Below are positions 19,087-45,492 of a DNA stretch of 64,000 nucleotides, piece by piece. This DNA is from Bacteroidia bacterium (GTDB lineage: Bacteria; Bacteroidota; Bacteroidia; J057), in assembly GCA_033391075.1 (NCBI GenBank), contig JAWPMV010000001.1:6324001-6388000 (forward strand), read 5' to 3'. The notes under the pieces are model-generated. The model was not told where the DNA came from, did not search any database, and saw nothing but the letters and a program-made list of their open reading frames with translations. Position numbers and translations under genes: made by a program. The stretch's first letter is position 1. Each line of letters starts with the position of its first letter.

Positions 19087-19159
19087 GATTCGGTAGCTCA
19101 GCTGGTAGAGCATCTGCCTTTTAAGCAGAGGGTCCAGGGTTCGAACCCCTGCCGAATCA
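19087..19159 (+). tRNA. tRNA-Lys (anticodon TTT)
   Basis: A 73-nt cloverleaf. Acceptor arms are GATTCGG (19087-19093) and CCGAATC (19152-19158), and the D-loop region is AGCTCAGCTGGTAGAGC. The anticodon arm is TCTGC-CTTTTAA-GCAGA with TTT in the loop, and the T-arm is CCAGGGTTCGAACCCCTG-like. The 3' CCA is not encoded. Confidence 0.95.
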
Positions 19160-19271: not shown

Positions 19272-19356
19272 GCCCAGGTGGTGAAATTGGTAGACACGCC
19301 AGCTTGAGGGGCTGGTGCCTATTGCAGGCGTGCTGGTTCGAGTCCAGTCCTGGGTA
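19272..19356 (+). tRNA. tRNA-Leu (anticodon GAG)
   Basis: An 85-nt tRNA with a long variable arm. Acceptor arms are GCCCAGG (19272-19278) and CCTGGGT (19349-19355, one G-T pair). The anticodon arm is CCAGC-TTGAGGG-GCTGG with GAG in the loop, and the T-loop is GGTTCGAGTCC. CCA is not encoded. The caspase/CHAT operon begins 235 bp downstream. Confidence 0.95.
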
Positions 19357-40431: not shown

Positions 40432-42624
40432 TTAATTACCCACTTCTGATATAAACTTTATCCTAACAAGTTGAATTTCTTGTCTTGAGTAATCCAAACC
40501 CAGCTCATTTTCTGCTTCATCCAGGCTATCAGAATCCGAACTCATGAAATAATCATAGATCTCATCGATCTTGTCATCATCCATCTGGTCCTCGATAAAG
40601 TAGTCTATATTCAGACGAGTCCCTGAATAAACGATCTGTTCTACATTTTCCAGCAAATTTGTGTATTCGAGACCTTTGATCTCAGCGATCTGATCCAAAG
40701 GAGTTTTTCTATCCACATGCTGAATAATAAAAAGCTTATTCATAGACTTTCTTGCTGCCGATCTTACAACCACATCCGTCGTACGCTCGATATTATTGAC
40801 CTCGACATAGTCTTTGATGAGTTTGATGAAAGGAGCCGCAAATTTACGGGCCTTTCCTTCTCCTACTCCTATGATGTTGCGAAACTCCGTCATGCTCAGG
40901 GGATACTTGGTAGCCATATCCTCCAGGGAAGGATCCTGAAAAACTACATATGGAGGTATTTTCTTTTCCTTCGCAATCTTCTTTCTCAACACCTTTAGCT
41001 TGTCGAAGAGGGTAGTGTCGTAGGTATTGAATTTTTCGACCGGCTCGTGATTCTTTTTCAGTTCACTGAGGTCCTGGTATTTGATCAATTTGATGTCCTG
41101 AGGTTTCTTGAGGAAAGCAATCCCTTTGGGACCTAATTTGATCACCCCATACTCATCGATATCCTTGATGAGAAAATCTTCGATGATCAATTGGCTGAAT
41201 ATGGATTTCCATTGACTTTCATCCATATCGCTCCCTTTTCCATATTCATCAAGTTTATTATGCTCATACAGCACAATATTCTGGTTGTTTATTCCCTGCA
41301 GGATATGGATCAGATCTGACTGGCCAAATTTTTCATTTACAGCCTTCACTACCCGCATAGCCATATCTACATACTTGGTAGCATTGAAGTTCTCTTTGGG
41401 ATAGCGGCAATTGTCACACATATTATTACAGCCAGACTCATCAAAAGTCTCCCCGAAATAGTGCAGCATTTGCTTGCGCCGACACGTGCCGGACTCCGCG
41501 AAAGCAGCCATTTCATATAATAGATGCTTACCGGATTCTCTTTCACTCACGGGCTTGTCTTTCATAAACTTCTCCAGCTTCACGATATCATTGAAATCGT
41601 AAAAAAGCAGGCAGTTTCCTTCCAGACCATCTCTTCCTCCTCTTCCTGTCTCCTGATAATAACTTTCTATACTTTTCGGTACGTCATAGTGAATCACATA
41701 GCGTACGTCTGGTTTATCGATTCCCATCCCAAAGGCAATGGTTGCTACCACTACCTGTACATCCTCATTGAGGAACATATCCTGATGGCGACTTCGGGTG
41801 GAAGCATCCAAACCAGCATGATAAGGAACAGCTTTGATCCCGTTGACATTCAGGATCTCTGCATTTTCTTCCACTTTCCTTCTACTCAAACAGTAAACAA
41901 TGCCCGATTTGCCGGGATTCTGTTTGATATATTTTATGATCTCCGTTGTCGCATTGCTGTTGTTTACTTTCGGACGGATTTCATAATAAAGATTATCTCT
42001 ATTGAAAGAGGTCAGATACACCTCCGCATCTTCTATATGGAGGTTATGTATGATGTCTTGTCTTACCTTGGGAGTAGCCGTAGCGGTCAGCGCTATAATG
42101 GGCACCTGGCCGATACGATTGAGCATTTCTCTGATCCTTCTGTATTCCGGACGAAAGTCATGTCCCCATTCGGAAATACAATGGGCTTCATCAACCGCCA
42201 TAAAACTGACCCTGGCCTGCTTTAGGAATTCGATAAACTCTTCCTTGACCAGAGATTCAGGAGCCACATAAAGCAATTTCAACTGGCCACTGAGTACTTT
42301 GTGCTTGACCGCCTCATAATCCCCTCGATTCATACTACTATTCAGGTAGCCGGCCTCAATACCAAAGGCATTCAGTTGATCCACCTGATTTTTCATCAGG
42401 GCAATAAGAGGAGAGATCACAAGGGCAGTGCCCTCCATCATGATCGCAGGAAGTTGATAGCAAAGGGATTTTCCTGCACCGGTAGGCATAATTACGAAAG
42501 TGTTATTTCCTGCTAGCAGGTTTTCAATCACTTCCTGTTGTCTTCCTCTGAACTCATCGTACCCAAAGGAGTTCTTTAATGCCTCGTGCAGCTTGTTGTC
42601 TCTTGTCGCAAGTTGTTCTTTCAC
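40432..42624 (-). CDS. recQ: ATP-dependent DNA helicase RecQ
   Basis: A 730-aa 3'-5' DNA helicase of recombination and repair. Motif I is PTGAGKS (47-53), motif II DEAH (145-148), motif 0 FRGRQQ, and motif III TATATP. The strand-switching region is GRGGRDG. The zinc-binding RQC region has CRRKQMLHYFGE...CNNMCDNC, and a HRDC domain lies at about 540-620 (PYVVFQDPSLEDMA, GVGEGKARKF). A further ~100 residues, including an acidic C-terminal tail, extend past the HRDC. The start is a GTG at 42624; no in-frame ATG lies between it and the helicase core. Confidence 0.95.
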   Translation of the reverse strand: MKEQLATRDNKLHEALKNSFGYDEFRGRQQEVIENLLAGNNTFVIMPTGAGKSLCYQLPAIMMEGTALVISPLIALMKNQVDQLNAFGIEAGYLNSSMNRGDYEAVKHKVLSGQLKLLYVAPESLVKEEFIEFLKQARVSFMAVDEAHCISEWGHDFRPEYRRIREMLNRIGQVPIIALTATATPKVRQDIIHNLHIEDAEVYLTSFNRDNLYYEIRPKVNNSNATTEIIKYIKQNPGKSGIVYCLSRRKVEENAEILNVNGIKAVPYHAGLDASTRSRHQDMFLNEDVQVVVATIAFGMGIDKPDVRYVIHYDVPKSIESYYQETGRGGRDGLEGNCLLFYDFNDIVKLEKFMKDKPVSERESGKHLLYEMAAFAESGTCRRKQMLHYFGETFDESGCNNMCDNCRYPKENFNATKYVDMAMRVVKAVNEKFGQSDLIHILQGINNQNIVLYEHNKLDEYGKGSDMDESQWKSIFSQLIIEDFLIKDIDEYGVIKLGPKGIAFLKKPQDIKLIKYQDLSELKKNHEPVEKFNTYDTTLFDKLKVLRKKIAKEKKIPPYVVFQDPSLEDMATKYPLSMTEFRNIIGVGEGKARKFAAPFIKLIKDYVEVNNIERTTDVVVRSAARKSMNKLFIIQHVDRKTPLDQIAEIKGLEYTNLLENVEQIVYSGTRLNIDYFIEDQMDDDKIDEIYDYFMSSDSDSLDEAENELGLDYSRQEIQLVRIKFISEVGN

Positions 42625-42824: not shown

Positions 42825-42893
42825 TATTATAAAGCTTGGATTGACGGGCAACTCTTTCAGAAAAGGCGACGTTTATAATTTAACTTCACAGGT

Positions 42894-43466
42894 ATGAGAT
42901 TATCTGATTATCAAGAAGATGAAATCGTAAAAGGCTGTCTAGACGGCGGCCGCAAGTACCAGAAACTGCTATATGAGAAATATTATGGCAGCATGATGGT
43001 GGTTTGCATGCGATATACGTATGACCGGGATGAAGCCAGAGATGTACTTCACGAAGGATTTATGAAGGTTTTTCGAAATCTTCACAAGTATTCCAAGGGT
43101 ACTAATCTGGGGGCATGGATCAGAAGAATTATGATCAATACCTCGATAGACCACTACCGAAAGATGGCCAAACGGCCTAACCTGGTTGAGATCAATCATG
43201 CAGTACATGAGATCGACGTTCAAGATGTTGTATCCGATATGTCTGCTGAAGAAATCCTGGGTATGGTTCAAAAGCTTTCCCCCGCTTACAGAACTGTCTT
43301 CAACTTATATGTGATTGAAGGGTACGCTCATAAAGAGGTTGGTAAAATGTTGGGAATAAGTGAAGGTACTTCGAAGTCTAACCTTGCAAAAGCACGCTCT
43401 AAGTTGCAGCAAATGATTCTTAAATCACGAATGATTAAGAAGGTGGAAGGTGAAAGCTATGCATGA
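42894..43466 (+). CDS. ECF-type RNA polymerase sigma factor
   Basis: A 190-aa sigma-70 family protein with only regions 2 and 4. Region 2 (about residues 18-90) contains YDRDEARDVLHEGFMKVFRN and LGAWIRRIMINTSIDHYRK. Region 4 (about 115-180) contains LSPAYRTVFNLYVIEGYAH, KEVGKMLGISEGTSKSNLAKAR. It directs RNA polymerase to a specific regulon. The stop overlaps the start of the next gene, which encodes a membrane protein with cytoplasmic repeats, so the pair looks like a sigma/anti-sigma module. The regulon is not known. Confidence 0.92.
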   Translation: MRLSDYQEDEIVKGCLDGGRKYQKLLYEKYYGSMMVVCMRYTYDRDEARDVLHEGFMKVFRNLHKYSKGTNLGAWIRRIMINTSIDHYRKMAKRPNLVEINHAVHEIDVQDVVSDMSAEEILGMVQKLSPAYRTVFNLYVIEGYAHKEVGKMLGISEGTSKSNLAKARSKLQQMILKSRMIKKVEGESYA

Positions 43467-45492
43467 TCAATACATAGACGAATTAATTAAACACAAGCTC
43501 AAACAGCTCGAGCTACTGCTTGATCCCGAAGATTGGAAAAAACTTTCGGACAAGTTCAGCGCGGCGCTGGAAAATCATATTGCTAAAAAATTAGCTACTT
43601 ATGAGATCAGTCCAGATCCTCAGGACTGGCCTAAACTCAATGCGCTTCTCAATGAAGCCTTTGATATTCAAATCAAACACATTCTTTCTTCTTACGAAAT
43701 AGACCTCAATCCATCCGATTGGGGACTTATTGCTACTGAGCTGGATGAAAATCCGCTTGATACAAGCATCGCCAGAGGTCTTCATAACTATGAAATAGAT
43801 ATGAAGCAGGAAGATTGGAATATGTTTGCCTCACAACTGGATGAATCTGCCATTGATACAGGCGTGAGAGAACAATTGTCACATCTTGAACTCGAAGCCC
43901 AGCAAGGTGACTGGGAAGCTTTCGAGTCTCGTATAGAAGAGAACTTCGACGAGCAGGTCAAAAGTAAGCTCGCGGATATCAGTCTTAGTGCTGCACCGCA
44001 GGATTGGAATGAAATGGCTCGTCTTATGGATGGGGATGCCTTCCTCAGTGATGTCAGAGAGAGCCTGGAGGGAGTAGAGATGGCTGCTTCTCGTGAAGAC
44101 TGGAGAGCTATGGAAGACAAGCTCAATCAGCCTCTTTACACGACTTTCCAGGAAAAGTTTGCATTCATGAGCGTTCAACCGCTTAAAGGCGATTGGAAAT
44201 CAATGGAAGCGCTCTTACAGGAGGACGAAGATACACGCATCCCAATTCCACTTCCCTGGTATGCCCAGGCTCGTTACCTCGCTGCAGCCTCTGTGCTGAT
44301 TCTATTCCTTATTGCACCCTTCTGGATTGGGAAAGATGGTCGCAACCCTGCCACTAGCTTTATTTCCAGTATTATCAATGGGGAAGGGGAAGAACTTGGC
44401 GAAGTTGAAAATAGCTCTTTTGAGGTAGATAAAATTGAAAATGCAATTGCTTCCCGTGAGAGTACGGCTCCTACAGTAGCCAAAAACACTCCCACAGAAA
44501 GTGATTTTATAAATAGTACCGCATTTGTTTCAGGAGCCGGAGAATTGGCGTTTGAGTCAGTTGCCGCAGGAATCAGTTCTCCTCAGCGCCTTGAAGCACG
44601 GCCCGCACTTAACTTCGAAATTGATCCTGGCTTGATCGATGGTATTCCATTTGAGACAAAGCCTCAGGAAGATAAAAGTAAAAAAGCTGATCCCAAGATT
44701 GATATGGTAGGCCCTCGCAGAGAAGGTTTTCTGAGAGAGATTCCATTTAAAGCTTTCGCCAATCCCTGGATGATGGGCAGAGAGTCTCATTCTAAAGGAA
44801 TCGAACAGGTTTCCATTTTCAAAAGACGAAGATTTCCCTTCAGAATTGGCTTATTCGCAAGTAGCTCAAAATCAGCTGTGGAGTTAAATGAACTCAGATC
44901 AACTTCCTCCAGTAAACTGGGAGAAACTTTCCGGGGAGGATTAAGAGCTGAATTTAATATCAAAGGAAATCTGCATTTTGTTACAGGCCTTAACTATGAA
45001 AAGCGTCATTTCGATCACGCTTTCCAATACTTGCGCCCAGGCTTCAATAGCGGCGAAGTACAGGCCGTAGATCAATTCATCAGCGCAGACCTCCAATTGG
45101 TTCAGTTGCCGCTTCTCCTTAGGGCTTATGCACCTTCTAAAGGCAATCTATCCCTATATGTACAGGGAGGACTTGTTCCCATGGTGTCTTTGAAAGAAAG
45201 CTACAGACTCTGGGAAGGAGAGGAGATCAGTTCAGCATTGCCGTTTCAGCTTACAGAAGATCCTTCTGGAGATCCACAAACTCAGGACTGGAGTTTCAAC
45301 ACCTATCCTGGTACGATCAATCTCTCCGCAGGACTGGAGTATCGCTTCGATAATAAGTTGGCTATACAGGCAGAGCCTTACACCCTCCTTAGTTTGCAAC
45401 AAACCAAGGGTTCGGGTTCCTTAAACCTGAGAAAGAAAATGTACACAGTTGGGCTTGCTTTCTCAGTCATCTATGGATTTTCCGGAAAATAA
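43459..45492 (+). CDS. Putative anti-sigma factor with eight DW repeats and outer-membrane barrel
   Basis: A 677-aa protein. Residues 1-255 consist of eight tandem units of 31-32 residues, each with a helix, a YEI-like turn and a DW pair (DW at 25, 56, 87, 119, 151, 182, 214 and 245). A membrane helix follows (271-290), then a low-complexity linker (290-440). The C-terminal region (about 450-677) has alternating strands ending in an aromatic/Gly pattern like an outer-membrane beta-barrel (PorT-like). This would place repeats in the cytoplasm and the barrel in the outer membrane. The ATG at 43459 overlaps the sigma gene by 8 nt (a GTG at 43450 is possible). Anti-sigma function is inferred from position. 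Confidence 0.7.
   Translation: MHDQYIDELIKHKLKQLELLLDPEDWKKLSDKFSAALENHIAKKLATYEISPDPQDWPKLNALLNEAFDIQIKHILSSYEIDLNPSDWGLIATELDENPLDTSIARGLHNYEIDMKQEDWNMFASQLDESAIDTGVREQLSHLELEAQQGDWEAFESRIEENFDEQVKSKLADISLSAAPQDWNEMARLMDGDAFLSDVRESLEGVEMAASREDWRAMEDKLNQPLYTTFQEKFAFMSVQPLKGDWKSMEALLQEDEDTRIPIPLPWYAQARYLAAASVLILFLIAPFWIGKDGRNPATSFISSIINGEGEELGEVENSSFEVDKIENAIASRESTAPTVAKNTPTESDFINSTAFVSGAGELAFESVAAGISSPQRLEARPALNFEIDPGLIDGIPFETKPQEDKSKKADPKIDMVGPRREGFLREIPFKAFANPWMMGRESHSKGIEQVSIFKRRRFPFRIGLFASSSKSAVELNELRSTSSSKLGETFRGGLRAEFNIKGNLHFVTGLNYEKRHFDHAFQYLRPGFNSGEVQAVDQFISADLQLVQLPLLLRAYAPSKGNLSLYVQGGLVPMVSLKESYRLWEGEEISSALPFQLTEDPSGDPQTQDWSFNTYPGTINLSAGLEYRFDNKLAIQAEPYTLLSLQQTKGSGSLNLRKKMYTVGLAFSVIYGFSGK

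Follow-up and report, generated by a model that had tools for sequence, protein, structure and literature searches.

A probable Dma-type transmembrane anti-sigma factor with a putative eight-copy sigma-binding head in a Bacteroidia bacterium

We analysed a 64,000-nucleotide stretch of DNA from a Bacteroidia bacterium (the window) and found an operon that encodes an ECF sigma factor and a 677-aa protein. We propose, at a probability of about 60%, that the 677-aa protein is an autoregulated transmembrane anti-sigma factor of the Dma type, in which the cytoplasmic head that binds sigma, normally a single unit of ~31 aa, has been multiplied to eight. That the protein is a Dma-type anti-sigma factor of the adjacent sigma factor is in itself highly probable, judged from sequence, and the eight copies of the presumed grip suggest that several sigma factors could be held by a single molecule. 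The Dma kind is already known; what is new is its variant with a head in eight copies.

The sigma operon and its DW array

The probable partner is an ECF sigma factor gene (42894-43466, + strand), whose 190-aa ORF matches the Pfam models Sigma70_r2 (2.9e-14) and Sigma70_r4_2 (1.7e-14) and the NCBIfam model sigma70-ECF (1.2e-26); no ECF group was assigned to it by the Pfam or NCBIfam models. This ORF runs past the ATG at 43459 of the anti-sigma gene (43459-45492, + strand), which was checked as an open reading frame of 677 aa, and the first 8 nt of the anti-sigma gene are therefore shared with the sigma gene, as the earlier note had described. Upstream of the operon lies a divergent recQ-like helicase gene (window 40432-42624, − strand; named by eye), and RecQ-like ORFs, also named by eye, adjoin the sigma operon at loci L002 and L003 too. 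The window additionally contains two tRNA genes (19087-19159 and 19272-19356, + strand). A role in a defence system was rejected, PADLOC having returned nothing for the repeat protein and one weak match to the sigma factor.

All 13 genomes of the taxonomic family, the window genome included, encode a matching protein (in genome G012 the contig ends within it); at E ≤ 1e-10, the remaining 9 genomes of the order gave no match. Compared with the window's sigma factor, those of the other 12 family members show 61–83% identity. The sigma and anti-sigma genes share 8 nt at 8 of the 13 family loci and 11 nt at two (L009 and L010); at three (L011–L013) a gap lies between them.

The earlier note had claimed eight regularly spaced DW pairs in the N-terminal part of the protein, and we found them at residues 25, 56, 87, 119, 151, 182, 214 and 245, with spacings of 31, 31, 32, 32, 31, 32 and 31. 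When residues 1–262 were shuffled 20,000 times, eight DW pairs were never reached (the maximum was 6, with spacing ignored), and the self-match of the protein peaks at offsets of 31, 63 and 32. A ninth DW, at residue 610, lies inside the barrel. On the + strand, the units occupy 43471-43563 (unit 1, residues 5–35), 43564-43656 (unit 2, residues 36–66), 43657-43749 (unit 3, residues 67–97), 43753-43845 (unit 4, residues 99–129), 43849-43941 (unit 5, residues 131–161), 43942-44034 (unit 6, residues 162–192), 44038-44130 (unit 7, residues 194–224) and 44131-44223 (unit 8, residues 225–255), the last being the weakest match with every model used.

To describe the unit across the family, we employed a 65-unit model, prepared after 22 of 87 W windows, irregular or non-repeat, had been removed by hand; removing 12 more units gave a 53-unit model, A3. 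The consensus of the 65-unit model is x-F-D-x-x-I-R-x-K-L-x(10)-D-W-x-x-[MFL]-x-x-x-L, and L10, D3, L29 and D21 are retained in 53–56 of the 65 family units (in windows centred on W). Within the window protein, mean identity among units is 26% and the highest is 42%. Because the signature positions are kept despite this low mean identity, the array appears to be old and under constraint; a recent DNA amplification of the window array was rejected, its units being at most 42% identical. The number of DW copies in the family ranges from 3 to 8, as counted by W positions. Positional orthology of the eight units among three 8-unit relatives was also rejected, with p < 0.05 in only one of the three pairs.

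Modelled alone, residues 1–263 form helices alternating with short loops, at a mean pLDDT of 67.6 and a pTM of 0.25, and these scores leave the region without a defined overall fold. The predicted helices mostly span from one DW to the next FDxxI..KL, with short loops between them (moderate to low confidence), and in the full-length model the N-terminus is helical at low confidence. The earlier description of each unit as a helix plus a turn is corrected accordingly. A row of binding elements that can be separated from one another would be consistent with this helix/loop model, which does not prove it.

The earlier note did not know the repeat as a named family, and no Pfam or NCBIfam model scored above cut-off over the window units. 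No family of the two collections, anti-sigma domains included, matched residues 1–262 up to E 1, and by these models the region falls outside class I, whose anti-sigma domain is 101 aa on average (PMC7406223). The same outcome was obtained for the DW unit in eight relatives scanned with Pfam and NCBIfam, in ten multi-unit relatives scanned with Pfam and, among the Pfam families listed, in 40 further partners: no model covered it above cut-off. The few matches that touch heads of relatives were sub-threshold and mutually inconsistent (for example, FAZ1_cons in L053, Cactin_mid in L144, DUF3379 in L104 and GltJ in L087). Kinship of the repeat with solved proteins was rejected, as the PDB matches of the unit profile, at E up to 0.021, were all designed TIM barrels covering 13–16 positions of the profile; the whole window protein gave no match.

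Predicted membrane helix, tether and barrel

The array is followed by a single hydrophobic helix, predicted to lie in the inner membrane (about residues 273–291; 44275-44331, + strand; hydropathy 2.14) and modelled as a helix at residues 271–289 with a pLDDT of about 55. Beyond it, a predicted disordered periplasmic tether of 168 residues (residues 292–459; 44332-44835, + strand), with pLDDT values of 26–47 across blocks of residues 301–460 and disorder at residues 294–457 in the full-length model, leads to a predicted 8-stranded outer-membrane β-barrel (residues 460–674; 44836-45480, + strand). The Pfam model OMP_b-brl_2 (PF13568) matches residues 459–638 (E 1.3e-7; 32.3 bits compared to a cut-off of 27), and AlphaFold2 places eight strands, each of at least 12 residues, within residues 461–674 at a pLDDT near 90 over much of these strands. 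Foldseek against the PDB ranked OmpA at the top (best E 1.8e-8), and the top 50 also contain NspA, Ail and OmpX; the superpositions are loose (rmsd about 6–12 Å for these; the best five all at least 6 Å).

These predictions support the membrane helix, the barrel and the partnership with the sigma factor that the earlier note had put forward, and they support its single chain from cytoplasm to outer membrane. That such a chain is new is not supported, because the Dma architecture, in which one chain joins the cytoplasm and the outer membrane, has already been published (PMC13088901); for the same reason, the label of a 'categorically new outer-membrane-spanning sensor' was rejected.

In Bacteroides thetaiotaomicron, Dma1 and Dma2 are described beside their ECF21 sigma factors Das1 and Das2, and the window protein resembles them in gene position and in its predicted order of parts: an N-terminal sigma-binding region (putative in the window protein), one transmembrane helix, a long disordered tether and a C-terminal β-barrel (PMC13088901). 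Dma1 is described as silencing Das1, the phenotype of the Dma2 mutant as depending on Das2, and the Dma1 and Dma2 mutants as acting via freed sigma factors (PMC13088901). The eight tandem head units set the window protein apart from Dma as that report describes it, a comparison made with the published description of the B. thetaiotaomicron proteins (PMC13088901).

A second likeness is to M0N98_03760/03761 of Phocaeicola vulgatus, reported in connection with BcpT, where a large anti-sigma factor, predicted to span the periplasm and to end in an outer-membrane barrel, lies downstream of its sigma factor (PMC9308784). The regulon of that anti-sigma factor responds to an antibacterial toxin, probably via envelope stress, and interrupting the P. 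vulgatus homologue turns a regulon on (PMC9308784). The passages of that report that deal with this pair mention no repeat, in difference from the window protein, and the likeness is one of published description (PMC9308784). Within the open-licence PMC literature, our search brought up no report of anti-sigma domains in tandem.

DW heads in other sigma partners

We found that the DW unit multiplies a head that is usually single in related partners. The 65-unit model matched single N-terminal segments of barrel-bearing partners from other lineages at 31–40 bits (L054, L055, L056 and L059) and, weakly, at 13.3 bits (L041); the best scores among shuffles of their own first 130 residues (2000 each) were 6.1–9.5 bits for these five. 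Four units were found in L053, totalling 77.9 bits compared to 13.7 bits for the best of 2000 shuffles. Two of the four DW units in this protein (encoded at L053:2326-4752) are 87% identical, which indicates a recent, apparently separate amplification, and the long, low-complexity tether of L053 is rich in T, N, S, K and Q.

Across the phylum, the unit was detected at E ≤ 0.01 in 43 of 395 genomes, the window genome included. Among the best 29 other loci of this survey, a sigma ORF is immediately followed by the ORF of the unit protein in 28, the exception being L107, where no such pair was found; 23 of the 28 carry one unit and 5 carry two to four. With the sigma factor as bait, a relative was present at E ≤ 1e-30 in 132 of 149 class genomes. 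At the best 30 of these sigma loci, the ORF that follows the sigma gene contains a unit scoring more than 4 bits with the family-only model in 28 cases (4/4 in the family and 24/26 outside it). A broadened model was iterated on the very loci to which it was first applied, so its counts there are not independent; the family-only model gives the same 28/30.

We then took 40 further sigma loci, all outside the family, as rows chosen by hand from the sigma listing. At every one, the downstream ORF runs in the same direction as the sigma gene and encodes a hydrophobic stretch, and with the broadened model a unit reached at least 5 bits in 32 of the 40 and at least 10 bits in 25, seven of the 32 matches scoring 5–10 bits only. 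As controls, 4 of 2000 shuffles reached 5 bits and none reached 10, and none of 115 other ORFs reached 10 bits. A position-only model of 21 heads, two of which (L117 and L119) start wrongly, contain no unit and were retained, recovered all eight window units at 68.8 bits compared to 11.1 bits for the best of 2000 shuffles.

Taken over 66 non-family sigma loci, the downstream protein has one unit in 50 cases, two to five in 6 and none at threshold in 10, and some of these ten show, by eye, a W in a comparable setting. Conservation in single and multi-unit heads is correlated at r = 0.86 over 39 single heads, a value that is partly circular, since heads below 12 bits were left out and the filter was the model itself. 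On these comparisons, each DW unit has its homologue in the N-terminal head, present in most cases only once, that the partners of related Bacteroidota ECF sigma factors carry. The view of the repeat as an isolated novelty is therefore kept in one part, its lack of a Pfam or NCBIfam model, and given up in the other. Partners in this group of Bacteroidota ECF sigma factors may bind sigma through the DW unit as their shared element. A natural sigma/anti-sigma fusion in genome G460, suggested by an 861-codon open frame, was rejected; it is really two separate, overlapping ORFs.

Probable autoregulation, proposed sigma binding and outer parts

A probable ECF promoter, GCAAC-N17-CGTT (42848-42873, + strand), lies 20 nt before the sigma ATG. 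The form [AG]CAAC-N17-CGTT, which we take to be similar to ECF promoters, precedes the sigma gene in 13/13 family loci, 15–26 nt from its start (GCAAC in 11 of the 13 genomes and ACAAC in the other two); when spacings of 10–25 were compared, 17 gave 13/13, 13 gave 1 and all others gave 0. Before 61 related non-family sigma genes, the strict form occurs 6 times and the looser CAAC-N16-18-CGT[TC] 24 times, compared to a mean of 0.6 and a maximum of 3 in 200 shuffle rounds.

Genome-wide, the exact GCAAC-N17-CGTT occurs 9 times in the window genome, compared to 29 for the reversed-pattern control. Motifs with a start codon 12–34 nt downstream number 81 in the 13 family genomes, compared to 77 for the control, and there is thus no overall enrichment of start-linked sites. 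We inspected 69 such sites (30 loci plus 39): a correctly placed ORF of at least 40 aa follows 33 of them, six of which are the sigma gene. Save for the sigma genes themselves and a weak sigma-like similarity of L252, no two of these 33 ORFs were alike, and among the 69 sites no downstream regulon beyond the sigma operon was identified. Based on the promoter in 13/13 loci and on the operon as the only recurrent target found, the sigma operon is probably autoregulated.

We infer the anti-sigma mechanism from the published relatives. In the class II anti-sigma factor CnrY, two helices clasp the sigma factor, the first on σ4 and the second on σ2 (PMC7406223). A small two-helix head of this kind is proposed for each DW unit as an analogy only (PMC7406223); in difference from CnrY, to which it is likened by description, the DW unit profile finds no natural PDB homologue among its matches at E up to 0.021. 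Each DW unit would clasp the sigma factor with its first helix on σ4 and its second on σ2, and several units of one chain could be occupied together, so that several sigma molecules would be held. With the barrel lodged, as predicted, in the outer membrane, its state, assembly or ligand would be relayed by the ~168-residue tether. A signal would free the sigma factor, which would transcribe its own operon, and the operon's output, sigma factor plus a multivalent sink, would reset the switch.

Binding of the sigma factor by more than one DW unit at once falls a little short of even odds. A tentative extension is that the DW unit represents an anti-sigma element without a name so far, heading most partners of this large group of Bacteroidota ECF sigma factors, and that in the window's family it forms an eight-site, outer-membrane-tethered sponge, storing up to eight sigma factors with buffered, threshold-type or pulsed release. 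If so, release of this kind would be beyond the reach of a 1:1 anti-sigma factor.

It is possible, if doubtful, that one unit alone binds the sigma factor while the rest act as spacers or self-association elements, which would make the protein an ordinary 1:1 Dma anti-sigma factor with an enlarged stalk. Single-unit relatives suffice elsewhere (50/66 loci), the copy number in the family varies from 3 to 8 while the sigma factor is well conserved, and unit 8 is divergent. However, a single-head model finds all eight units despite wide drift between the signature positions, which speaks against this reading.

We consider it unlikely that the barrel-bearing chain never spans both membranes, whether through periplasmic cleavage or through a C-terminus that stays periplasmic. 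An apparent split form in the window genome points that way: at L075:101-1863 (near 6.843 Mb), the gene for a 289-aa helix-bearing protein with a weak DW-like head is directly followed by a separate OMP_b-brl_2 barrel gene. The spanning chain is favored instead by the predicted OmpA/OmpX-type fold of the barrel and by the length of the tether, kept at 128–190 residues in the 12 family members with an intact contig (L003, truncated at a contig end, measured 58 and does not count towards this range).

Still less probable is a hub whose units bind several different ECF sigma paralogues and coordinate several regulons via one outer-membrane sensor. The window genome (G000) does have 9 matches to the sigma model at E ≤ 1e-30, and the units of the window protein do differ at their 26% mean identity. 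However, three paralogue loci of that genome (L075, L079 and L081) each have their own partner, in which a weak DW-like head is joined to a membrane helix, and in the four family genomes sampled the sigma matches (9, 10, 9 and 5) do not track the unit number (8, 5, 4 and 5). L079 and L081 are two more barrel proteins beside sigma-like genes; the heads of all three are DW-like by eye, with best scores of 5.5 (L075), 5.5 (L079) and 11.3 bits (L081), and with the family-only model all of them stay at or below 3 bits.

FecR-type positive regulators, through which a sigma factor needs a membrane protein for its activity, exist as a kind. The sequence by itself is compatible with either sign of regulation, but such a role is very improbable for the window protein, as the published Dma and P. 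vulgatus barrel anti-sigma factors repress and their loss activates the sigma factor (PMC13088901, PMC9308784).

The preferred reading, a multiplied anti-sigma head, poses a quantitative question: does copy number set the amount of sigma factor stored and the sharpness of its release? In a 2020 survey, no more than 6% of the ECFs of Bacteroidetes had a class I anti-sigma domain next to them; for the remainder, the survey suggested that broken synteny or anti-sigma factors of other classes may be the explanation (PMC7406223). A short DW head directly downstream at most sampled loci of one such ECF group would answer part of this gap.

DW heads join outer-membrane barrels, PKD/CHU_C domains or PorP/SprF domains. 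Partners in other Bacteroidota with PKD/CHU_C or PorP/SprF C-termini share with the window protein the DW head and hydrophobic helix, some of them with several units, and carry another outer part in place of its 8-stranded barrel. At E ≤ 0.01, the 40 further partners matched OMP_b-brl_2 (13), CHU_C (14), PKD_4 (12) and PorP_SprF (1), with several matches per protein possible. Multi-unit heads are combined with PorP/SprF C-termini in L142, L143 and L144 (E 1.9e-19, 1.5e-21 and 1.7e-16, respectively); in these and in L152, heads of 4–5 DW units are joined to a domain of this type, which belongs to a T9SS membrane family. CHU_C is a type IX secretion signal, and 14 of the 40 proteins encoded directly after the sigma genes of L152–L191 match it; anti-sigma-like chains with such an export signal at their end could act as reporters of T9SS activity. 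At L086:1462-2787, both CHU_C and PKD_4 are matched, CHU_C below cut-off. Two further sigma-linked proteins, L261:1197-2450 (− strand) and L262:689-2533 (+ strand), have three and two scored units, respectively.
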